A DNA stretch of 64,000 bases. Source: a bacterium (GTDB taxonomy: Bacteria > Oederibacteriota > JAAXVQ01 > JAUVAV01). Every line of letters starts with the position of its first letter. Within the stretch, counting starts at the first letter, position 1. The stretch covers positions 62,001 through 126,000 of the forward strand of contig JAIORK010000028.1 in the NCBI GenBank assembly GCA_021108215.1, written 5' to 3'. Below are positions 3,001-12,529 of the stretch, piece by piece. The position numbers and the translations under genes are program-made. The notes beneath the pieces were generated by a model. It was not told the origin of the DNA. It worked only from the letters and a program-made list of their open reading frames with translations, and did no database searches.

Positions 3001-4532
3001 AAACCATCACCTTGGTTTTCTCCGGGATGATACGTCTGACCCGGCATAATAACGATATAACGGTAAAGCGAAGTCGTCTGGCTCGCTTCAACATTGAATG
3101 TCCCTGAATCATCATCAGTTGCACCATTGTCCGCTCTGATTCCAATGGTAAATCCGGTACGGTAGATGGTATAGGTCCCCGTCCAATTACCATCCCCATC
3201 AAATTGAGAGCCACTGATTGAACCGGGAGCATAAGCGCTGGCATCAAAATCACTGCTTGAATTGGCAACCAAATTCACCGTTCCTGCAACACTACCGGTC
3301 GATGTACAGGTATTACCATAGACATCATAGGCTGTTACAACCAAGGAAAAACCCGTACCCGCATACTGCGGTGATGCAATTGTGTTAAATCCAAAGGATG
3401 CATGTGTCGCATTATCGAGAGGGACTGTTTCCTCATCCGTGGTCAGACCACCAGCCACAGTAAGCGTCTGACTGCCTGCGAGTACACGCCGTAAATCAAC
3501 ATCAAAATAAGCAACACCGCTCGTTAAAAACCCGAGTGTTCCATTCACCTGCATAATCGAGCCGCCAAAGCCCAAATCAGTTGCACCCAAAGCAATCGTG
3601 GTCGAAGGCGTGATAAGATTCCAGTACTGGTCGCAGGCATAGATGGTCACCCGAAAGGGGACTCCGGCGGTCTGAATATCCATACTGCCATCAACGCCAT
3701 CTCCCCCAGTTTCACCCTGCTGAATAGATTGCCCGGGGCCAACAATGAGAAACTGCCCAGCCGGGCCGGTATTTACAGTAATCGATCCCGATGTGGATGT
3801 TACAATCGTTCCGGGATCAGGCGAAATCGTGCTTGCCTCCAGTTGAATGCCGCTTCCGGCATAAAATAATTGAATGCGCGGATAAGCCACACCATTGGTA
3901 AAGGAAACCGTGTCCAAAACCCCGGAATCGGACCCATTAATACCTCCATTCAATGCGCGAAATGACACCGTCCCGTCAAACGGCAATACAGGATCATTAT
4001 TATTGTCTCTGGCGGTAACTGTCACATAATTCACTTCCCCTACATCCCATGATACCGGCAGATCATAAAAAAACTTGTCCATATAATAAATATGAATTAT
4101 TTTTTGTCCCGTTTGAATACCGCTCGGATTATTGGTGCCTGTGGAAATGGTCACATCAGACGTCGCTGCGGGTAAAAGTGTTGTCACAAAAGGCGTATAC
4201 CGGCAATTGGAAACCGGCGTATCCTGCTCCAAATTTTGCGCGCCTGATGCCGGATTGAAGGTGGCCGAACTGGTTGCTGTCATTGTCACCAAGGCATACG
4301 TTGTGATATAATTCCAACTCGAATCATCAATCGAGCCTATTTCCACATCAAAAGCAACCCCCGCAACTTGGGAATTTGGCACAGCATCTACCCATCCTGT
4401 ACCATGTAAAAAAGATTCACCCGGTGCAACGAGAATAAGTCGATTCGCCGCCATCGCAATCGATGCAGATAGCAATAAAACAACAACACTAAAAACGATT
4501 ACCATCATTTTTCTTACAGTTCCTTTTATCAT
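1..4532 (-). CDS. Giant secreted protein with alternating Ig/filamin-like repeats (3' end outside window)
   Basis: Reading frame stays open from an ATG at 4532 to the left edge (at least 1510 residues), so the C-terminus lies outside. Start is supported by an AAAGGA element 7 nt upstream. Residues 1-29 form a signal peptide (basic start, hydrophobic core, AMA-A cleavage site). The rest is built from a two-part repeat: a strand block of the form hydrophobic-PG-x4-PG-x-GDG, followed by AGxxFxVxIxAxDxxxN blocks like those of bacterial Ig-like/invasin or filamin-type beta-sandwiches. The PG block recurs near residues 37, 265, 496, 740, 975, 1247 and 1454, a period of about 200-270 residues. No catalytic motif is visible. 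Likely a surface or extracellular structural/adhesive protein (inference); a sorting domain or anchor may lie beyond the window. Existence of the gene is near certain, the function is not. Confidence 0.85.
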   Translation of the reverse strand, partial: MIKGTVRKMMVIVFSVVVLLLSASIAMAANRLILVAPGESFLHGTGWVDAVPNSQVAGVAFDVEIGSIDDSSWNYITTYALVTMTATSSATFNPASGAQNLEQDTPVSNCRYTPFVTTLLPAATSDVTISTGTNNPSGIQTGQKIIHIYYMDKFFYDLPVSWDVGEVNYVTVTARDNNNDPVLPFDGTVSFRALNGGINGSDSGVLDTVSFTNGVAYPRIQLFYAGSGIQLEASTISPDPGTIVTSTSGSITVNTGPAGQFLIVGPGQSIQQGETGGDGVDGSMDIQTAGVPFRVTIYACDQYWNLITPSTTIALGATDLGFGGSIMQVNGTLGFLTSGVAYFDVDLRRVLAGSQTLTVAGGLTTDEETVPLDNATHASFGFNTIASPQYAGTGFSLVVTAYDVYGNTCTSTGSVAGTVNLVANSSSDFDASAYAPGSISGSQFDGDGNWTGTYTIYRTGFTIGIRADNGATDDDSGTFNVEASQTTSLYRYIVIMPGQTYHPGENQGDGFGRSAAPTDMTVGDMVSVIVYATDLYGNQLTSGVYSTGDINNSLERIDAGATVPSTAALSNGRTVFSIVLTTAYSGSNQQQLQCTGAAPIPGQSNYFNVLATSLDHFTVGNIGGTQTAGSAFNVNISARDEYENIVTSFTGPVYVTCPDLDYHNPEQSVLSVPTYGTATGVTWTVSSGFSSGVWSHNMLVYRAGTDVEISVSQNVNGTGVIGTSASFDVNANTHQKVFMIVPGLEYRPGVGGGDGNSLGGYYGTPNAQEIGTPFYVTVYATDDWWNPVFSSGSFTMTTVPDTSNIHNTDWEFNLGNTVVAVVLNGSETYRLTADYDTTGIDDYTTPYYFDTTSLNRFMLTGFGGAVLPDSLTAGVPFDLSITAYADAGSTIASTFNGQTNLVTSADYAEPYRVISPQQIIFTNGIWYGQATVFRAYTNVNIQCQLGSVPSVVSVNPTVYHNAANRMLALATGMTPKPGIAPNVYPPGGFPGYEGNPEIHEAGVSYDLKIYVCDEYYNVVTHTASGGTDQIQISSSDPYPATMGTMLGAGQNLPQTVNVGAFGVNSPQDPGYPYGGYRTTDFVLYTVGINGYQTLTVANLDNGSVASFTLGGGGNPPINVRHNDQIRQFQVDIDTSPKTAGVAFSATVTAQDGYGNTMDNRNTATAFPASNNVNLSSGSGTNTLYPTVIQLPGGTYGGVGYPDLTLYKEYIGNSVAATFSDVEGTHGGTSSASNVNANSFTRLIPIVPSMDINGGGVYSTPSPGAGFVGYSGSPGTQNSGSSISSFRVYACDAYGNVAEGPVDWVYVKTTDRFASIPTPVQINLISGYAEFSGSQAFAFHQAADPDIGDTPFSITAYDVIETTQSLTRANGSTLDALGTTNVIDIIKVHDGSAVYVKNWDYQQNGDSIEWLGRDAPAGGAGFTAHWVYSNPAGISTGTTPGIYVNPASVYGLVTVAPGQILVEGSGNSLMASGIGGVTSGGWYSGVTLTEPSGDVENSLLADPEISGAAFG

Positions 4533-4682
4533 ATGTTTGTCCTTTTCCCAGAATTTAACAAACCTGCCGAGTGCCCGGATCACTGTCATCCTACTTCTTT
4601 ATTAGACAAATTATCCATTCATTTTATTGCATTTATTTTATATTTTTATAAATCATTTCACAAATGCATTATTTTCGCCTCA
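4533..4682. other. AT-rich upstream region of the giant protein gene
   Basis: AT-rich spacer between the giant protein gene and the transposase relic. It must hold the promoter of the giant gene, but I could not single out a convincing -35/-10 pair. Confidence 0.3.
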
Positions 4683-5045
4683 TCAAATCCGGGGATGGGA
4701 CGCACTCCTGATAACTTGTTTAACCTCATCACCAAATATCAAGCTTTCACCCTTTTGAATCAAAATGCTTGCACTGCTTCTTGTCACACATATAAATAAT
4801 TTTTGCGCCGGAGACAGCAAAAAACGGGCATGAGTGGTCATCAATACCCGGGCATAACAATTGACCTTGGTTTTTTCCAGACACATACTGAAACATCTTG
4901 AAAATCGAATCCGGTCTTTCTTATCGTGAAACAAAAACCTGCGTTCGATGCCGCGGATGATGATGTGATAGATGCCACCTGGTATATGGAGTCTCCCTTT
5001 TCTGGCCATATATCTTTTGACCAACACTTTGGGAAATCCTTGCAC
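4683..5045 (-). pseudogene. Decayed REP-associated tyrosine transposase (RAYT, Y1/IS200-like), truncated
   Basis: From the internal Met at 5012 the product begins MARKGRLHIPGGIYHIII, the standard start of REP-associated tyrosine transposases (TnpA-REP, Y1 HUH superfamily), and continues with the expected R-G, F-H-D-K-x-D-R-x-R-F and Y-A-x-V-L-M-T segments. The HUH metal-binding motif, normally N-H-x-H-x-L-L, reads T-H-A-R-F-L-L, so the second histidine is lost. After about 75 recognisable residues the family pattern stops, consistent with a frameshift or truncation, and the region that should hold the catalytic Tyr is absent. Intact relatives are roughly 150-300 residues. This copy is therefore inactive. 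It matters because REP-like palindromes and end sequences probably mobilised by such enzymes occur through the window. Confidence 0.75.
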
Positions 5046-5077
5046 TTTTTTTTAATAAAGTTAAACAGTTATCAGGT

Positions 5078-5111
5078 TTACGTCCCGTTCCACAGTTACG
5101 TCCCGTTCCAC
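5078..5111. repeat. Two 16-bp direct repeats (ttacgtcccgttccac) beside the RAYT relic
   Basis: Copies at 5078-5093 and 5096-5111 are identical. A short palindrome (gttccatgggaac, 5112-5124) follows. On the minus strand the unit reads GTGGAACGGGACGTAA, similar in core to the MITE end GAACCCGGGACGTTGATTA found at 6.4, 9.7 and 10.7 kb. Lying just upstream of the transposase relic, it may be a leftover recognition array (inference). Confidence 0.6.
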
Positions 5112-5157
5112 GTTCCATGGGAACCAATAAAGAGTCTAGAAGCCAGGCCTGGCACCC

Positions 5158-5535
5158 TTACCTGCGGTGCCGCCGTAATGGCAGCCACCAAAAAGAGGTC
5201 AGGCACACGATGAAATAGAGGCCGGCCGAAAGACGGAAAATCCATAAAGGCGCCCCCCAGTTCTCAACATAAATAATCCGTTCCACCCATGTAGCCAGAA
5301 AAGATTCCTGGTAAGAAAAGCCCGGTGTCGCAGCTTGCCGGAAGTATTCCTCGCCATAGGTCAATGGGCAATAAAACCCCAACACTGCCAACACCAAGTA
5401 AGAGAATAGCCCCACAGCATGCACCACGCGCAATACCGGACTGCGCAGCACCACTGCCAGGAGAAAACCCGTCACCATAAACACAACCCATAGAAAATGC
5501 ATTATCAGAAGCGCATCTGCCAGCAGCTTTGCCAT
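5158..5535 (-). CDS. DUF2784 family membrane protein
   Basis: A 125-residue protein with about four hydrophobic helices (roughly 5-27, 33-54, 92-115 and a weaker central one). It carries the DUF2784 layout: an N-terminal A-D-x-L-L-x-x-H-F segment, a central Y-x-C-P-L-T-Y-G-E loop, and a G-F-S-Y-Q-E-S-F segment before the last helices. The family's biochemical role is unknown; members are small inner-membrane proteins. Length matches the family. It stands alone between a transposase relic and a toxin-antitoxin pair, so local context gives no functional clue. Confidence 0.75.
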   Translation of the reverse strand: MAKLLADALLIMHFLWVVFMVTGFLLAVVLRSPVLRVVHAVGLFSYLVLAVLGFYCPLTYGEEYFRQAATPGFSYQESFLATWVERIIYVENWGAPLWIFRLSAGLYFIVCLTSFWWLPLRRHRR

Positions 5536-5593
5536 AGTCGTTCCTCAAATAGTATGACGGTATTTACCAGAAATACGGTCGCCAATCAGCAAT

Positions 5594-5878
5594 CTAAACA
5601 ATCCTCACCTGTAATTTCTTTCCCAGTGCCAAAGCAACTTTTTCCAGAGTCGAGAGCTTGATGTCTTCCGCGTGATTCTCAATTCTGGATATTGCTGTCT
5701 TTTGCGTGTGCAATTTCTTGGCAAGCTCATCCTGGGACAACCCGGCTTGTTCCCGCGCCATTTTCAGAATGACCCCGATTTTGAATTCCTGATAGCCGCT
5801 TTCATAATTCAAAGCAAAACTTTTATCCCTTTTTTTGCGTTTGGAGGTATATTTTTGTAAATCACTCATGGCCATCAT
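5594..5878 (-). CDS. HigA-like antitoxin, XRE helix-turn-helix
   Basis: A 94-residue protein whose C-terminal half is a Cro/C1-type helix-turn-helix (residues about 32-86: LKMAREQAGLSQDELAKKLH then T-A-I-S-R-I-E-N). It is the second gene of a toxin-antitoxin pair: its ATG overlaps the stop of the upstream toxin by 4 nt (ATGA), so translation is probably coupled. The toxin-first order and RelE/Gp49-type partner are those of HigBA-like modules. The antitoxin should bind and neutralise the toxin and repress the shared promoter through its HTH (family knowledge). No operator could be assigned. Confidence 0.85.
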   Translation of the reverse strand: MMAMSDLQKYTSKRKKRDKSFALNYESGYQEFKIGVILKMAREQAGLSQDELAKKLHTQKTAISRIENHAEDIKLSTLEKVALALGKKLQVRIV

Positions 5879-6273
5879 CTCTTTTCCTTAAAATATTCCT
5901 GCTTCATTTTCTCTGCCCTGTGAATCTCTTGTTTTGATAATTTTTGTGTCTTCTTCATAATGCCATGCGTGAGAATAACATTATTACGGTCCCAAAAAGC
6001 AAACACCCTGTAGATGTTATTCCCGACTTTTATCCTGCACTCCCAAATACCCTTCGTTGCAGTGAGCTTCTTGAAATACTGCCTGGGAATAACCGGTAAA
6101 TCTTCAATAAGATTCAATACCCAGACGACTTTCTTTGCTGTTTTTGCCGGAAGAGTCTCCAGAAAATCCTCAACCGGACAATGATTCTTGAATCGGTAAA
6201 AACCCACAGACCGAACCGGCTTATTTTCTATGTTAACTTGCATGTTAACCTTTGTCAAGGTGTGTTTTGCCAT
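5875..6273 (-). CDS. HigB-like toxin, RelE/ParE superfamily (Gp49 type)
   Basis: A 132-residue protein of the phage-derived Gp49-like/RelE fold. Visible features are an N-terminal helical segment (F-L-E-T-L-P-A-K-T-A-K-K), a central K-K-L-T-A-T-K-G-I-W-E-C-R-I-K strand region, the Y-R-V-F-A-F-W strand pair, and the C-terminal H-G-I-M-K-K-T-Q-K-L helix typical of the family. Such toxins are usually ribosome-dependent mRNA endonucleases (family knowledge). AAAGGGG lies 6 nt before the ATG at 6273, favouring this start over an internal Met at residue 11. The module looks intact, in contrast to the damaged HigBA locus near 40.8 kb. Confidence 0.85.
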   Translation of the reverse strand: MAKHTLTKVNMQVNIENKPVRSVGFYRFKNHCPVEDFLETLPAKTAKKVVWVLNLIEDLPVIPRQYFKKLTATKGIWECRIKVGNNIYRVFAFWDRNNVILTHGIMKKTQKLSKQEIHRAEKMKQEYFKEKR

Positions 6274-6445
6274 ATGAATTCCCCTTTGGATTGCGGTATC
6301 ATCATATTGGACTGATTATTTCAGAAATCCATGCAGAAAAAATAAAAAAAGAATCAATCACTGAATTAACGAAGACTACGAAGGAAAAATTATTTTGAGA
6401 TTTTAATGATGTAAACTACAGGAGCATTACGAATCTTCATCAATG
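6274..6445. other. Non-coding spacer upstream of the HigBA pair
   Basis: AT-rich sequence with no supported gene; it should contain the toxin-antitoxin promoter. A possible -10 (TATGAT on the minus strand near 6302) has no convincing -35 partner. Confidence 0.3.
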
Positions 6446-6738
6446 GAACCCGGGACGTTGATTAGAACCCGGGACGTTGATTAGTAGAACCCGGGACGTT
6501 GATTAGTATATTAATATAGCACGTCTGGCACCATCTTCTCAGGTATCCAGCAAATCAAAAACAGCTTTTTCCGGCTCCTCTCCCTTTGGCACTGACGTAA
6601 TAGAAGGCTCCTGGGATTCCAGTTCAAAATTGTCTTGGCATATTGTATTTAACTGATAGTAGCGGGTTTTCATTTATTTTTTTTGATTTTCTATACTGAT
6701 ATACTAATCAACGTCCCGGATCCAAACGTCCCGGATCC
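6446..6738. mobile_element. MITE copy 1 with nested, tandemly repeated ends
   Basis: Core element 6490-6720 (231 bp). Left end cccgggacgttgattagtat and the reverse complement of the right end (tccgggacgttgattagtat) match at 19 of 20 positions, and the inverted repeat extends to about 30 bp. No coding sequence lies inside. Two extra copies of the left end abut it (6447-6465, 6466-6487) and an extra right-end fragment follows (6724-6738). Interior sequence is shared with 10671-10905 along the full length and with 9683-9808 along the left half. It fits a non-autonomous miniature inverted-repeat element. No clear target-site duplication is visible. Confidence 0.8.
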
Positions 6739-6834
6739 ACGGATCCCCTCACTATTACGCTATTAACGGCGTGCCTGAATTATATTTCAGTGAAATTTAA
6801 AGGGGACGTAGGGCAAGGGCGTGAATCCCGGTGC

Positions 6835-9549
6835 CTAATGCACCACCGCGATTCTCCGGGTTTCCAGCAACTTCCCGTCTTTGAGCACCCGCAACAGGTA
6901 CACGCCGGCAGCAATATCCGAACAGTCCCAGACCAGCGTCTGTCCCCGGCCGGCTGAAAGCGCGGATCCCACCGAAGCGATGCGCTCTCCGGAGAAATTG
7001 TATATTTCCAATGTGATCTCAGCCGCCGCGTCCAAATGGACGACAAACTTCATTTCCGCATTGGCGGGGTTCGGATACGGCAGCACAAAGCCGCCCTGCA
7101 AATCCACCTGGGCCAGGACATTGGTGGGCGTACAACTTGACGTAGGGGTGGAAGTATACGTGGGTGTGACTGTACTAGTGGGAGTAATGGTTCCGGTCAC
7201 TGTATAGGTGGTTGAAATCGTCGAAGTTGCCGAAATAGTCGGGGTCGCGGTTATGGTCGGCGAATGGGTAAAGGTTGGTATAGTAGTTGGTGTAATCGTA
7301 GGTGTATGCGTGGGAGTGCCGGGCGGAGAAGTGGCTTGTAGGTTCAAGGAAAATTCAGAGGTATTATTAAGCACATCGGTTGCCGTCGCGCAAATATACT
7401 CGCCCACGATATAGCCTCCGGCAGCCAGACTCCACAAACCGGATCCGTTGGCAGTAGCATTCCCCAGGTAGCGGGTACTGCCCCCGTATCCGCCGGGTGT
7501 ATTTTCCGCCGCAAATATTTCCACATAATCTCCAGCTTGAGCTGTACCGGTAATCCCGGCAACTGTGTCGGCCAATCCGACCACAGGTATGTCATAATTT
7601 CCGTTTCCACTGCTGACCAGATAAATGCCTTTATTTACAAAAGCAACAATCGTGTTCCCAAAAATCCCATTGTCAATAGTTGCGGCGCCACTCACCACAA
7701 TCCCGTCATTGGCATTGGCAATCAAGTTACCCACGCCGGTTGCTTTGTTGCCAATCATATTCCCGTGCGCACCGGTGAATAGGTTGATCCCGGCTACCAA
7801 ACCCACGACCGGAGATTGATCCGGAAACACGCCGATCACATTGCCCACCAGGGTATTGCCAAACGTACCCGTATTTTGCAAATTAATTTCTTGTATATTG
7901 TAATTACCTTGGATCATATTCTGAAAACTGTTGAAAAGAACAATGCTTCCGGACCCATTGAGCAAAGGCGCGGTCCCCCCCGCATTACACCCAATATAAT
8001 TTCCGGCAATAACGTGCCCCACACCGCCGCTCATGAATATGCCATCACCATTATTCCCGGAAATGATATTCCTATAATTCGAATTATACCCGCCAAACAA
8101 ACACGGCCCTGCGCCGAAATTAATAAATATTCCGCCATTCTGATTGGCTATGGGAGCGTCTCCATTGGCATTGAGTCCGATTGTGTTTCCCGCAATGGTA
8201 TTGCCCGCGCCCGAGCTCAGGAATATTCCATTGAATTGATTCCCGGAAATTACATTCCCATAGGTGCCCGCATCATTGCGGCCGCCAATCAGGTTGCCGG
8301 AACCGCTAATTACAATACCCGTGTTATTCTGCAAAGCGGAAGTGCCGGTCACATTCGTGCCAATATAATTACCGCAAATGGAATTGCCATTCCCGATCAA
8401 GTAGATTCCACCGTTTGCGCCATTGCCGGATATGATATTGCCTTCCAAATTATCGCGATTGCCTCCAATAAGTGTGTGGTCGGAATCGTTTAGATAAATA
8501 CCATCTCCATTGGTGAAAGAGGCACTGGAGGGATTGGTGCCAATATAATTATTCTGAATGATATTATTTTGCGGTCTGGTGCCGGCAGCCTCCCAGAAAT
8601 TAATGTTGTATGAGGTATTGCCTGCCACAATGTTTTCGTAATTTGCCAGGGACAGTCCGATAGCGTTCCCCTCCAAGGATACGCCCGCAATACCCCGGTT
8701 GTTTGGCACGGCGGTATCCATCGCAAGATTCAGCCCTACAATGTTCCCGGCCACCGTATTGCCGGAGGCTTCAGCATCTTCAAAAACAATACCGTATTGG
8801 GAATGGCCTGATACAATATTACCCAATCCCGCGCTCCGATCACCGCCAATCAAGTTTTCCCGGCCGGCATATATACAAATACCAAAACTTTGCGCTCCCA
8901 ACCCCGCGCTGCCCGCATTATTGAGTCCAATATAATTTCCGGTAATAACATTATGCGAACTGCCGGTGTTGAGCCAAACACCGCCATTGGTATTGTCGGA
9001 AATGATATTACGCGTACTCGCATTATTTCCACCCAGGCTGTTGTAATTACCCATGATATATATCCCATAGTAATTTCCCAAGCCCGTGGTGTCCGCCCAA
9101 TCCGTGCCAATCCGGTTCCCATAAATCATATGGCAATTTGAGTTGCTTTGAATACGAATACCGTAACTACTGTCCACAATAGCCAGGCCGGTAATCGTGC
9201 TTCCCGTCGCCCCGGCATTCAGTTGAAAACAGATTTGCGGACCAAGATTTTCAGCGCCCACCTTTATCTGGTTGCCATGGATATATGCTGGATAAACAAT
9301 GAGTAACGTACTATGAACAGTAATTGAATTGGCGGCCGGATCCAGGGATTGCGCATGCACGAATTGGATGATATCCGGAGCGGTCGTCAGATTGGCCTGC
9401 GCAATACACCACGGCAAAGAACCAGGCACTGAAACACTGGCCACTGGCGTGACGACATTGTAGGTGGCTGCCAGAGCGTTTTGGCATTGCATGAGAAGCA
9501 CAAGACTGAATAAAACCGCTGTTTTCAAAAACAGTTTCCTGGCTCGCAT
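6835..9549 (-). CDS. Secreted right-handed beta-helix protein with Thr/Pro linker and C-terminal sorting-like domain
   Basis: Start taken at the ATG at 9549 (904 aa), preceded by a G-rich ribosome-binding stretch and giving a clean signal peptide (MRARKLFLKTAVLFSLVLLM, then A-L-A); a longer frame to 9609 lacks these. Residues about 110-690 are dense PbH1/NosD-type coils with repeating N-x-I-x-G-N, G-I-x-I/L and N-x-I-G-G-x-N patterns, the signature of a parallel beta-helix. An Ig/carbohydrate-like segment follows. Residues about 755-815 form a Thr/Pro-rich linker, then an 80-residue end (Y-P-N-P-A-N, G-E-R-I-A, W-D-C-S, G-V-Y-L-L-R) matching the type IX sorting-domain/FlgD-Ig fold. No polysaccharide lyase active site was recognised. 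Likely exported and displayed or released at the surface. The gene sits between MITE copies. Confidence 0.85.
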   Translation of the reverse strand: MRARKLFLKTAVLFSLVLLMQCQNALAATYNVVTPVASVSVPGSLPWCIAQANLTTAPDIIQFVHAQSLDPAANSITVHSTLLIVYPAYIHGNQIKVGAENLGPQICFQLNAGATGSTITGLAIVDSSYGIRIQSNSNCHMIYGNRIGTDWADTTGLGNYYGIYIMGNYNSLGGNNASTRNIISDNTNGGVWLNTGSSHNVITGNYIGLNNAGSAGLGAQSFGICIYAGRENLIGGDRSAGLGNIVSGHSQYGIVFEDAEASGNTVAGNIVGLNLAMDTAVPNNRGIAGVSLEGNAIGLSLANYENIVAGNTSYNINFWEAAGTRPQNNIIQNNYIGTNPSSASFTNGDGIYLNDSDHTLIGGNRDNLEGNIISGNGANGGIYLIGNGNSICGNYIGTNVTGTSALQNNTGIVISGSGNLIGGRNDAGTYGNVISGNQFNGIFLSSGAGNTIAGNTIGLNANGDAPIANQNGGIFINFGAGPCLFGGYNSNYRNIISGNNGDGIFMSGGVGHVIAGNYIGCNAGGTAPLLNGSGSIVLFNSFQNMIQGNYNIQEINLQNTGTFGNTLVGNVIGVFPDQSPVVGLVAGINLFTGAHGNMIGNKATGVGNLIANANDGIVVSGAATIDNGIFGNTIVAFVNKGIYLVSSGNGNYDIPVVGLADTVAGITGTAQAGDYVEIFAAENTPGGYGGSTRYLGNATANGSGLWSLAAGGYIVGEYICATATDVLNNTSEFSLNLQATSPPGTPTHTPTITPTTIPTFTHSPTITATPTISATSTISTTYTVTGTITPTSTVTPTYTSTPTSSCTPTNVLAQVDLQGGFVLPYPNPANAEMKFVVHLDAAAEITLEIYNFSGERIASVGSALSAGRGQTLVWDCSDIAAGVYLLRVLKDGKLLETRRIAVVH

Positions 9550-9664
9550 AGTGCCCCCCCCATTAATGAAATCCTGCATTATTGTGACAAACATATTTTC
9601 GGATGGCAAGTTAAAAGCAAGAAGAACAATCAGCGAATAATTTATTATTTGGTTTTTCCGTAAA

Positions 9665-9808
9665 GAACCCGGGACGTTAGAACCCGGGACGTTGATTAGT
9701 ATATTAATATAGCACGTCTGGCACCATCTTCTCAGACATTTGGCAAATCACGAAAAACTTTTTTCCGGATCCTCTCCCTTTGGCACTGACATAATAGAAA
9801 GCTCCGGG
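9665..9808. mobile_element. MITE copy 2, truncated (left half only)
   Basis: Left end intact at 9683 with an extra partial end copy at 9665-9679 (gaacccgggacgtta). It follows the interior of copies 1 and 3 until about 9808, where similarity stops at a G/C-rich hairpin (ctccgggggcaaagtccccc). The right end is missing, so this copy cannot be a complete element. Confidence 0.75.
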
Positions 9809-9937
9809 GGCAAAGTCCCCCTGCTCCCTATGTGCAAGGTGCCGGGGTAATTTCCCTAATAGCATAAAATTCTGTTAGAGTATTAAAATATACATTAGCA
9901 ACTCTATTCACTTAAACCCCGCACCGACAACTCGATT
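9809..9937. other. Non-coding spacer after truncated MITE
   Basis: A short GC hairpin (gggggcaaagtccccc, about 9806-9821), then AT-rich sequence up to the stop of the next gene. No gene supported. Confidence 0.3.
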
Positions 9938-10381
9938 TTAAAATTTCAGCTTAAATTCCAAACCATAATAATTTGCATCAATCTGTGGTTCAAAAGATAG
10001 TACTAGTTCCTGTTTTTCTTTCTCTAAGATCTTAATTTTGTTACTATCACTAGCGCCTAAGACTAAAAAAAGAACGCCATTCCCCGTTATTCCAATGGAT
10101 GCCAATAATAACATCAGGCCAAAATAGCCTTTTTCTCCACCAACCAAACTAACAACCGTCAATATACCGCCAGCACTAAGTGTAGTAAGCCCCACAATAT
10201 TTTTCCATAATCGCCCTTTTTTATAGTCCTCGATTTCTTCTTGTATTTCTTGAATAGTTAATTGATTTGTTTTTTCGCTATATTTAATATATTGTTCGTC
10301 TTTGAGAACCAATGCTTCTCCTGCAAAACTCATATTTGCTGAAAATAGCAAAACTAAAATACTACTTAATATTTTTTTCAT
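9938..10381 (-). CDS. Small exported or membrane protein, unknown
   Basis: Start set at the ATG at 10381 (147 aa), which has AAAGGAGAG 7 nt upstream and begins a signal peptide (MKKILSSILVLLFSANMSFA-G). The mature part has a charged helix likely to coil (about residues 27-56: T-I-Q-E-I-Q-E-E-I-E-D-Y-K-K), two adjacent hydrophobic segments (about 60-80 and 84-108), and a lysine/glutamate-rich tail ending in a possible beta-strand. I do not recognise a family. The layout resembles small lipid-associated or membrane proteins often encoded singly. It lies between a truncated and a complete MITE and has a lower GC content than the surrounding housekeeping genes, which may indicate acquired DNA. 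Confidence 0.6.
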   Translation of the reverse strand: MKKILSSILVLLFSANMSFAGEALVLKDEQYIKYSEKTNQLTIQEIQEEIEDYKKGRLWKNIVGLTTLSAGGILTVVSLVGGEKGYFGLMLLLASIGITGNGVLFLVLGASDSNKIKILEKEKQELVLSFEPQIDANYYGLEFKLKF

Positions 10382-10668
10382 TGCCAACTCTCCTTTATAC
10401 TTGGTTACATCGTCCAAACAACTTGCCAATTTCATCTACTGCCCTTACTTTTAAATTCATATTGAAAATTACTTTTCCTAATCACCTAACACTATTCCTT
10501 TTTCACTCCAAGAACCTAAGTATTTCAGCGAGTTTGACCTCAAGCCGCATGTGCAACTACTTTCGTGATGCATTGCCGGCTCATCTGCCAAAAAGTATAT
10601 CTCAGCTGTCGAGCCCGAGCAAAATTTTGTTTTCTTTGGTTCGGTATCACCTCCTTTTTCCGGCCAAA
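10382..10668. other. Non-coding spacer
   Basis: No gene supported. Short frames here lack ribosome-binding sites and recognisable content. It must contain the promoter of the small exported protein. Confidence 0.3.
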
Positions 10669-10670
10669 AA

Positions 10671-10905
10671 CCCGGGACGTTGATTCGTATATTAATATAG
10701 CACACCTGCCATCATCTTCTCAGGTATCCGGCAATCATGAAGAAATACTTTTTCTCCGGCTCCTCTACCTTTGACACTGACGTGATGGAGGGCTCCGGGG
10801 ATTCCAGTTTAAAATTGTTTTGGTATATTGTATTTAACTGATAGTGGCGGGTTTTCATTTATTTTTTTTGATTTTCTATACTAATATACTAATCAACGTC
10901 CCGGA
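10671..10905. mobile_element. MITE copy 3, complete, inserted at the 3' end of a gene
   Basis: A complete 235-bp copy: left end cccgggacgttgattcgtat, right end ctaatcaacgtcccgga. The interior matches copy 1 over its full length by eye, with scattered substitutions and small indels. Its right end contains the TGA stop (10893-10895) of the adjacent minus-strand gene. Immediately outside lies a 12-bp tandem duplication (gcggcccactag twice, 10911-10934), which encodes a repeated V-G-R-L in that gene. Confidence 0.8.
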
Positions 10906-11354
10906 TTGTGGCGGCCCACTAGGCGGCCCACTAGTTCCTGTACCCGCGCAATGACCATTTGCTGCATTTTGCGCAGGGAGCGAAAAGCCGGCACCATGGC
11001 CAAAAGGGTAACCTCGAAGATAAACACATTTTGCACCAGGCGGGTCCAAAAAGACTGGGAAGCCGGGATGAGCCAGGCCCACACGGCAGAGAGCACGATC
11101 AATGCAACGATACATTGTATCGGAAGGAAATCAACCATACGGGAGAACACTTTGTCCCGCTGGATGAACATGGCGAGTACTTGATTGATGTTCTTGGTGG
11201 GATAAATTTTAGCAAACCGTTCTTTGGCTTGCGCCAAGGTCCATTGCGGCAAGGTCTTGCGGACCACAGCGACCAGTTTGTTGATCAACCAGGTGGCAAC
11301 CGCGGCCACGCCAATGGCAATGGCTGACCAGAGAATGATCTCAGACGCGTTCAT
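10893..11354 (-). CDS. Membrane protein of unknown function whose C-terminus is supplied by a MITE
   Basis: A 153-residue protein with a hydrophobic N-terminal helix (about 6-28), an amphipathic middle (residues 35-75), and two further hydrophobic segments (about 78-100 and 106-125). The C-terminal helix is basic and may be cytoplasmic. The last residues (H-N-P-G-R) and the stop are encoded by the right end of MITE copy 3, so the native C-terminus has probably been replaced. It lies 8 nt downstream of a GT4 glycosyltransferase, suggesting co-transcription and a possible role in envelope glycolipid metabolism (inference). No family recognised. Confidence 0.65.
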   Translation of the reverse strand: MNASEIILWSAIAIGVAAVATWLINKLVAVVRKTLPQWTLAQAKERFAKIYPTKNINQVLAMFIQRDKVFSRMVDFLPIQCIVALIVLSAVWAWLIPASQSFWTRLVQNVFIFEVTLLAMVPAFRSLRKMQQMVIARVQELVGRLVGRHNPGR

Positions 11355-11362
11355 GGATCGAT

Positions 11363-12529
11363 TCAGCCTTGGGCTTTTTTGGCCGCAATGACGGTTTCAT
11401 AATTGGCCAGCATCTGTTCGGCCTTGCTCCTGGCCGACCATTCGGTTGCCTGCTTTTTGGCTTCAACTAGTTTTTCCTGATACAATTTTTCATCCGTCAA
11501 AAGCCGGTTAACCGCATCCGTGAATTCGTCCACATTGAGCGAGACGGCGATCCCACCTCCAGCTGCCATAACATCGCGCACACCCATGGCCGCGACTGCC
11601 ACGCAGGGGGTCCCGGCTGCCATGGCTTCGGTTAGCACCAATCCCTGGGTCTCGGTCACAGATGCCAGCAACTGTAAATCCGCCGCTGCATAAAGATCCG
11701 CCCAATCTTTGCGATTGAGCAGTCCGATAAACATCACCTTTTCGTCTAGCTTGCGCTTTTTACAGTCTGCTTTGACGCTTTCCAAAGCCGGACCCTGACC
11801 GGCAATTACCAATCGCGCGCGGGGTTGACGACTCTCAAGCTTTTGGAGTACGTCAAATAAGAAAGGGATATTTTTTTCACCGGCCACCCGTCCCATGCTC
11901 AAAAGAATTTTCTCATCATCTGCAAAGCCCAATTTCTTGCGCATACGTGCACCATCCACATTGCGAAACGGCTCAATATTAATCCCGGTCGGGATGACTT
12001 TGACCGGCGGTTTGACTTTATAATCTTTCATCACTTCTGCAATGGAGGTGGACGGCACCACCACCGCATCATGTAAATTACAGCATCGCCGGGAAAACCA
12101 ACCCACAAACGGTTTATCAAAAACACGCGGCAAGATCGGAAAATAGTGCGGCATGTAAGCCTCAAACATGGTGTGATAGGTATGTACCAAAGGAATATTA
12201 AGTTTGCCGCAACGGCGTGCCATCATATAGCCCAATGTAAAGGGTGTCTGGGTATGCATAATGTCCAATTTCAAATCAGCAATCGCTTTGAGCTTACGCT
12301 TCGATTCCCCGGCATAAGGGTTGGGCAGCCGGTCCTCAGGATTAAAAAACAGATAAAACGAAGGAAAACGCCAGAGATCTTCTTCATCCACCTTGGCTTC
12401 GGGAAATCGGGGTGCAAAAATCGTGACTTTATGTCCCATGCTCCGGAACTGTTCTGTGAATGTCATGATGGATTTCATCACGCCGTTGACCCGTGGTAAA
12501 AACGTATCTGTCGCAATTCCAATGTGCAT
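11363..12529 (-). CDS. GT4-family glycosyltransferase (paralogue 1)
   Basis: A 388-residue GT-B enzyme of family GT4. It opens with M-H-I-G-I-A-T-D-T-F-x-P-R-x-N-G-V (N-terminal nucleotide-fold domain). The C-terminal donor domain holds S-M-G-R-V-A-G-E-K-N-I-P-F-L and the E-x7-E motif in ETQGLVLTEAMAAGTPCVAV (about residues 294-313). This arrangement is seen in retaining transferases that glycosylate diacylglycerol or phosphatidylinositol (for example MgtA/PimB-like proteins), so the acceptor is plausibly a membrane lipid, but neither substrate can be read from sequence. AGGGG precedes the ATG. It is the downstream partner of a close paralogue, separated by 127 bp containing a hairpin. Confidence 0.85.
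   Translation of the reverse strand: MHIGIATDTFLPRVNGVMKSIMTFTEQFRSMGHKVTIFAPRFPEAKVDEEDLWRFPSFYLFFNPEDRLPNPYAGESKRKLKAIADLKLDIMHTQTPFTLGYMMARRCGKLNIPLVHTYHTMFEAYMPHYFPILPRVFDKPFVGWFSRRCCNLHDAVVVPSTSIAEVMKDYKVKPPVKVIPTGINIEPFRNVDGARMRKKLGFADDEKILLSMGRVAGEKNIPFLFDVLQKLESRQPRARLVIAGQGPALESVKADCKKRKLDEKVMFIGLLNRKDWADLYAAADLQLLASVTETQGLVLTEAMAAGTPCVAVAAMGVRDVMAAGGGIAVSLNVDEFTDAVNRLLTDEKLYQEKLVEAKKQATEWSARSKAEQMLANYETVIAAKKAQG

Follow-up and report, generated by a model that had tools for sequence, protein, structure and literature searches.

The three short elements with inverted ends that lie within 4.5 kb of the window (the whole 64-kb stretch analysed here) are probably internally deleted derivatives of a TIRtron, which would have been moved in trans and whose ends would be nicked outside a conserved anchor, with a short extension and religation leaving truncated copies of the end behind (probability roughly 0.7). 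Their ends are those of a Y1/HUH (RAYT-type) transposase, of whose gene the interior is a remnant; neither of these points was visible in the earlier note on this DNA.

Copies of the element in the window

Copy 1 occupies positions 6487–6723 (minus strand, as defined by the remnant of the RAYT gene; TIRs 6488–6519 and 6691–6722) and copy 3 positions 10668–10908 (minus strand; TIRs 10669–10700 and 10876–10907). The half copy (9680–9805, minus strand) comprises the left (RAYT 3'-side) end and the deletion junction and extends partway into the 5' remnant, being cut off before the other end. The full copies are 237 and 241 bp long, have TIRs of 29–32 bp and contain no open frame. They share about 89–92% identity across most of their length (89% over 238 positions), and the first 86 bp of the half copy are 90% identical to copy 1. 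The ends pair over 29 nt with 93% complementarity in copy 1 (6491–6519 and 6691–6719) and over the whole 32 nt with 91% complementarity in copy 3. The alignments and end pairs thus bear out the earlier note, which had described two full copies and one half copy with inverted ends of about 30 bp; the region had however been started at 6446, which takes in two truncated extra left ends (19 and 22 bp), while the element proper starts at about 6487.

Homology continuing into the flanks, which had been named as the result that would speak against transposition, was not found, as the 200-bp flanks of all three copies show no mutual similarity, arguing against a segmental duplication. An origin of the copies by segmental or tandem duplication of some gene region is hardly credible any more and already largely contradicted: all three copies with the shared interior do lie in 4.5 kb, but the similarity ends at the TIRs, the flanks are unalignable, and the same ends recur at about 20 dispersed places as well as on both sides of a transposase gene. 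Inspection by eye revealed no target-site duplications at the copies, and none are expected at these ends since the enzyme is of the Y1/HUH (RAYT) type.

The core CCGGGACGTT occurs 15 times in the window when one mismatch at most is allowed, compared with 3.4 expected matches. In the whole genome the 30-bp end GATCCGGGACGTTGATTAGTATATTAGTATAG alone was found at the dispersed places mentioned above, and the 18-bp core of the end gave 25 matches with up to 3 mismatches as opposed to 2 for the reversed control. Searches of this genome and of 44 others from the phylum gave no further copy of the interior (draft assemblies, one genome per species; results for the own genome come from searches and selected stretches). 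The family is small, with three copies of the interior, all in 4.5 kb, and its spread is local. A search of 84,980 named genomes gave no match to an exact 21-mer of the end and no confirmed match to the RAYT protein described below, and an Rfam search over positions 4400–11500 of the window gave no match either. When a second end was searched for beside solo ends, the best candidates had about 6–9 mismatches of 20. Six of 11 solo ends of the type found on contig C55 are located 103–210 bp upstream of an ORF on the same strand; a promoter role was considered, but this placement is too weak for such a claim.

A related element with a complete transposase gene

On contig C55 of the same genome two such ends in inverted orientation flank an ORF of 336 aa (L063:3837–4983); its TIRs (L063:3837–3868 and 4952–4983) are 32 nt long and 94% complementary. 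The encoded protein matches Pfam Y1_Tnp (E 1.4e-14) and NCBIfam REP_Tyr_transpos (E 2.2e-21; 76.3 bits, slightly short of the cut-off, which is 80), and its tail matches Bac_DnaA_C (E 1.8e-6; 28.3 bits, under the Pfam cut-off of 31.5). It contains the motifs N59-H60-F-H62 (NHxH) and Y119-I-H-R-N-P (Y...NP), and in an alignment the HUH residues H60 and H62 as well as Y119 are invariant in 11 relatives. A sequence comparison of the protein with the PDB gave no match. All 10 full-length RAYTs of the C55 type examined in the same family are bounded by TIRs of 21–32 bp, the elements measuring about 1.06–1.26 kb (a separate measurement of nine of them gave arms of 22–32 bp); four distant RAYT loci were found on viral contigs.

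The autonomous partner with the same ends, for which the earlier note had proposed to look, is therefore present in the same genome and supports the reading of the copies as a MITE, that is a short, non-coding and TIR-bounded derivative. The kind of element has already been described (TIRtron/TIRYT, TnpAREP subclass 2.1) but little studied. The proposed genome-wide search gave about 20 places for the 30-bp end, and the interior stayed confined to the three copies.

Remnants of the transposase gene in the MITE

Read in the sense of the RAYT gene, the MITE is made up of the 5' TIR, a 5' leader, a decayed gene start, immediately followed by a decayed gene end, and the 3' TIR. In copy 1 the decayed start (the first 18–20 codons approximately; 6588–6641, minus strand) reads MPRQF*TGIPGAFYYVSA compared with MPRQPRIEIPGVLYHIIA in the C55 element. 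The decayed end (the last 25 codons or so, with the 3' part of the element; 6520–6591, minus strand) reads AKGRGAGKSCF compared with AKGRVSGGEDCL and is joined to the 5' part at a GCCA..GGG microhomology. At the nucleotide level, copy 1 matches the 5' part of the C55 element over 176 bp (77%, E 4e-32) and its 3' part over 106 bp (69%, E 5e-8). After removal of the TIRs the 5' homology exceeded all 500 shuffles in both copies, whereas the 3' homology did so in copy 1 only and not in copy 3. In a shuffle-controlled comparison the 500-bp middle of the C55 element has no counterpart in the MITE. The GCCA..GGG repeat was seen at both breakpoints where the 5' and 3' parts meet, in an alignment read by eye, which fits a deletion between short repeats.

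As judged from these sequence comparisons, the MITE is an internal-deletion derivative of a RAYT element related to the one on contig C55; as the latter is only about 77% identical to it in the 5' part, it should be seen as a relative and not as the direct parent. The interior, which had been described as non-coding, indeed contains no open frame, but it is not anonymous DNA and consists of what is left of a RAYT gene at its 5' and 3' ends, both of them decayed. It might be argued instead that the interior is no gene remnant at all and that the MITE arose by the pairing of two solo ends around unrelated DNA, given that solo ends are common in this genome, that tight inverted dimers without gene remnants exist and that copy 3 gives a weak 3' match. 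We consider this very improbable, because the collinear 5' homology extends about 140 bp past the TIR and includes the ATG and MPRQ..IPG, and because AKGR..C, close to the stop, has a similar spacing to the TIR.

According to the internal-deletion scheme, the parent would have been a TIRtron of about 1.1 kb with one TIRYT/RAYT gene (Y1-type HUH, TnpAREP subclass 2.1) between TIRs of about 30 bp. About 900 bp of the gene would have been lost between the short GCCA..GGG repeats, with both ends kept along with the start and stop of the gene. A related TIRYT, for example the intact one of contig C55, then probably mobilised the copies in trans.

Structure of the ends

Each TIR starts with an anchor, GGGGACG or a relative of it (GGGGGCCGG, GGTGCCG), which in most TIRs is followed by two tandem 8-mers, e.g. 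TTAGTATA TTAGTATA or GAATTAAG GAATTAAG. In the same family the period is exactly 8, a result reached in 0 of 1000 shuffles, and the other shifts from 5 to 11 show no excess; in the pooled other elements the period is 7. Such an exact tandem period suggests recognition of a tandem site and not of a REP hairpin. A hairpin of 20–40 nt with a GTAG or CGTC tag was not found at the ends, nor was a GTAG tag at the outer end. For a single end no stable fold is predicted; in the structure predicted for copy 3 the TIRs form the stem, and tight inverted dimers give a strong predicted fold. The transposase would thus recognise the GGGGACG-like anchor together with the two 8-mers, to which a role in recognition can be ascribed provisionally, and on single strands the two TIRs of a MITE could come together in a hairpin stem.

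Stacked ends

Truncated copies of the outermost 11–22 bp of an end are stacked directly outside the full end at many of the loci, which we call stuttered ends. At 13 of 59 ends a stretch of 9 nt or more is exactly duplicated in tandem over the junction, whereas shuffled flanks give 0.05 on average and a maximum of 1 in 300 runs. Ten of the 13 duplicated units start 5–8 nt outside the anchor, two at 12 nt and one just inside it, while the inner stop varies from 6 to 16 nt inside. The bases between the start of the unit and the anchor are the same within a locus and differ among loci (GAAAC, GGATAC, TACTAC, GTGGAAC, GGGATCC), suggesting that the units arise locally.

Outside copy 1 the two truncated left ends mentioned above are stacked at 6446–6486 (plus strand), and truncated right ends follow at 6724–6746 (minus strand), where a perfect 15-bp tandem unit (6710–6739) is succeeded by a 7-bp remnant. 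Another truncated end, again with a perfect 15-bp tandem unit, lies outside the half copy (9664–9679, plus strand). Eight perfect tandem duplications with units of 9–25 bp exist in the window. Four of them belong to the stuttered ends of the copies; a fifth adjoins copy 3, namely a perfect 12-bp duplication of flanking DNA, GGCGGCCCACTA (10910–10933, no strand assigned), which ends about 7 nt outside the TIR anchor.

Stuttering is also seen outside this family of ends. A truncated second RAYT gene in the window (4683–5009, minus strand; MARKGRLHIPGG..., NCBIfam REP_Tyr_transpos below the cut-off) has a stuttered 5' end of a different TIR family (5060–5118, minus strand; TGGAACG / GTGGAACGGGACGTAACT / GTGGAACGGGACGTAAACCTGATAACTG). 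At an element on contig C39 the stacked 5' copy is 140 bp long and takes in about 16 codons, and similar stacks were identified by eye beside elements on plasmids of Legionella adelaidensis and Acetoanaerobium noterae. None was seen at the two viral-contig loci, of the four, whose ends were inspected, and none at 18 ends of DDE transposons of the phylum, a sample too small to separate DDE from HUH elements.

The stuttered ends probably represent the footprint of HUH nicking, short extension of the 3'-OH and religation. The nick would be placed on the inward-reading strand about 6–7 nt outside the anchor, so that the flank would end in a 3'-OH and the element would carry a 5'-phosphotyrosine; slight extension of the 3'-OH before religation would then leave a truncated copy of the end outside the real one. 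HUH enzymes offer a basis for this, as the 3'-OH can prime synthesis and attack the 5'-phosphotyrosine link (PMC8266576).

The main competing explanation is replication slippage, in which the paired TIRs form a hairpin that the polymerase enters for a few nucleotides before it stalls, slips and copies the base of the hairpin again. The predicted stem of copy 3 and the presence of stuttering at MITE and dimer ends would be in line with it; however, stuttering also occurs at ends without a visible inverted partner nearby (L148, L152, L153), the outer start is nearly fixed while the inner stop is variable, and a lone end lacks a stable fold, so that we regard slippage as rather unlikely, yet as the alternative to be taken most seriously. 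Successive insertions into the remnants of earlier elements, be it at a preferred target or a re-used excision scar, appear less probable still. Nested replacement would leave truncated ends on either side of an element, which is what copy 1 shows, but the 5–8 nt outside the anchor are identical within a locus and different among loci, pointing to local duplication, and the inner remainder of the interrupted end is absent from the far side.

Nicking with extension could also be a general footprint of TIRYT/RAYT enzymes, each unit recording one nick at the position given above, and a longer extension, of which the long 5' copy on contig C39 would be an example, could on joining to the other end be a route from the full element to the MITE and on to the tight palindromic dimer. 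We put this forward tentatively and would not bet on it at even odds. Should stuttering reflect nicking, genome sequence would reveal the cleavage site of a TIRYT and open it to direct testing in vitro, and both site and strand would become available for a transposase subclass for which the covered part of the TIRYT literature reports no biochemistry.

Comparison with known systems

TIRtron is the name given to RAYT genes with TIRs on either side, whose TIR repeats also occur dispersed as single, dimeric and grouped copies (Di Nocera et al. 2013, PMC3733652). The elements studied here agree with that description in having a Y1 RAYT-like gene, long TIRs unrelated to GTAG REPs, and dispersed repeats that occur singly, in pairs and in groups. 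The TIRs described there are of the type GGGGWSAS, whereas the GGGGACG-like anchor fits GGGGWS but not the last two positions; GGGGACGT of the same family fits 6 of 8 positions, and in other families of the phylum the motif is GGGGTCAG/GGGGTCAC. The tandem 8-mers, the internally deleted derivative with gene remnants and the stuttered ends set our elements apart from TIRtrons as described in the covered parts of that paper. In the portion of the RAYT/TIRtron literature that was covered, no earlier description of stuttered ends or of an internally deleted TIRtron was found.

Most TIRYTs have been equated with TnpAREP subclass 2.1, which has DnaA_C or HTH tails (Quentin et al. 2018, PMC6006769) and corresponds to Bertels group 1. 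The C55 transposase is assigned to this subclass by motifs and domains, and the assignment is to be taken as putative: the HUH motif of the NH[YF]H type, the Y...NP motif, the Bac_DnaA_C-like C-terminus and the lack of a REP hairpin beside the gene agree with the subclass, whereas the protein is longer (336 aa compared with a median of 238 aa) and the TIRs are plain at every full-length element inspected in the same family.

For REPINs, derivation from the ends flanking an ancestral autonomous element has been proposed as one possibility (Bertels and Rainey 2011, PMC3116915). Like REPINs, the MITE is a non-autonomous inverted pair of ends thought to depend on a RAYT in trans; unlike them, its TIRs are not REP hairpins, it keeps both ends of the gene and its copies are far fewer. 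The MITEs of DDE insertion sequences are likewise short, non-coding and TIR-bounded internal deletions, but the partner here is an HUH Y1 enzyme and no target-site duplication is seen. An origin of REP-like repeats and REPINs from RAYT elements has thus been proposed, but in the literature covered its support is inference. The present genome and its relatives contain forms to be expected on such a path, namely the full element, a deleted element with both gene ends, tight inverted dimers and single ends.

Neighbouring genes and related loci

Copy 1 is adjoined by a HigBA-type toxin-antitoxin pair, consisting of HTH_3 and Gp49-like genes side by side (window 5594–6273), and a 924-aa NosD/beta-helix protein with a Por_Secre_tail is encoded between copy 1 and the half copy (6835–9609).

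Contig C6 of the same genome carries three direct repeats of about 490 bp (L058:4440–4929, 6134–6620 and 7278–7783), each of which opens with the final 10 bases of a tRNA-Asn gene and closes at a C55-type TIR. A real tRNA-Asn gene (L058:4375–4449) precedes the first repeat, and small single genes lie between the repeats.

Elsewhere, a tight inverted dimer of another TIR family with a stable predicted hairpin (L059:4313–4371) is nested just inside a solo C55-type end, and in genome G005 of the same family (contig C296) an end similar to GGGACGTTGATTAGTATA forms tight, REP-like palindromes with loops of a few nt (L125 and L137, at about position 1500). Two direct C55-type ends 3.6 kb apart (L065:4898 and 8479) each precede an array of 147-bp repeats, and a short tandem array of TACACATCCT (L153:1416–1475) is found beside a C39-type end with several stacked units.
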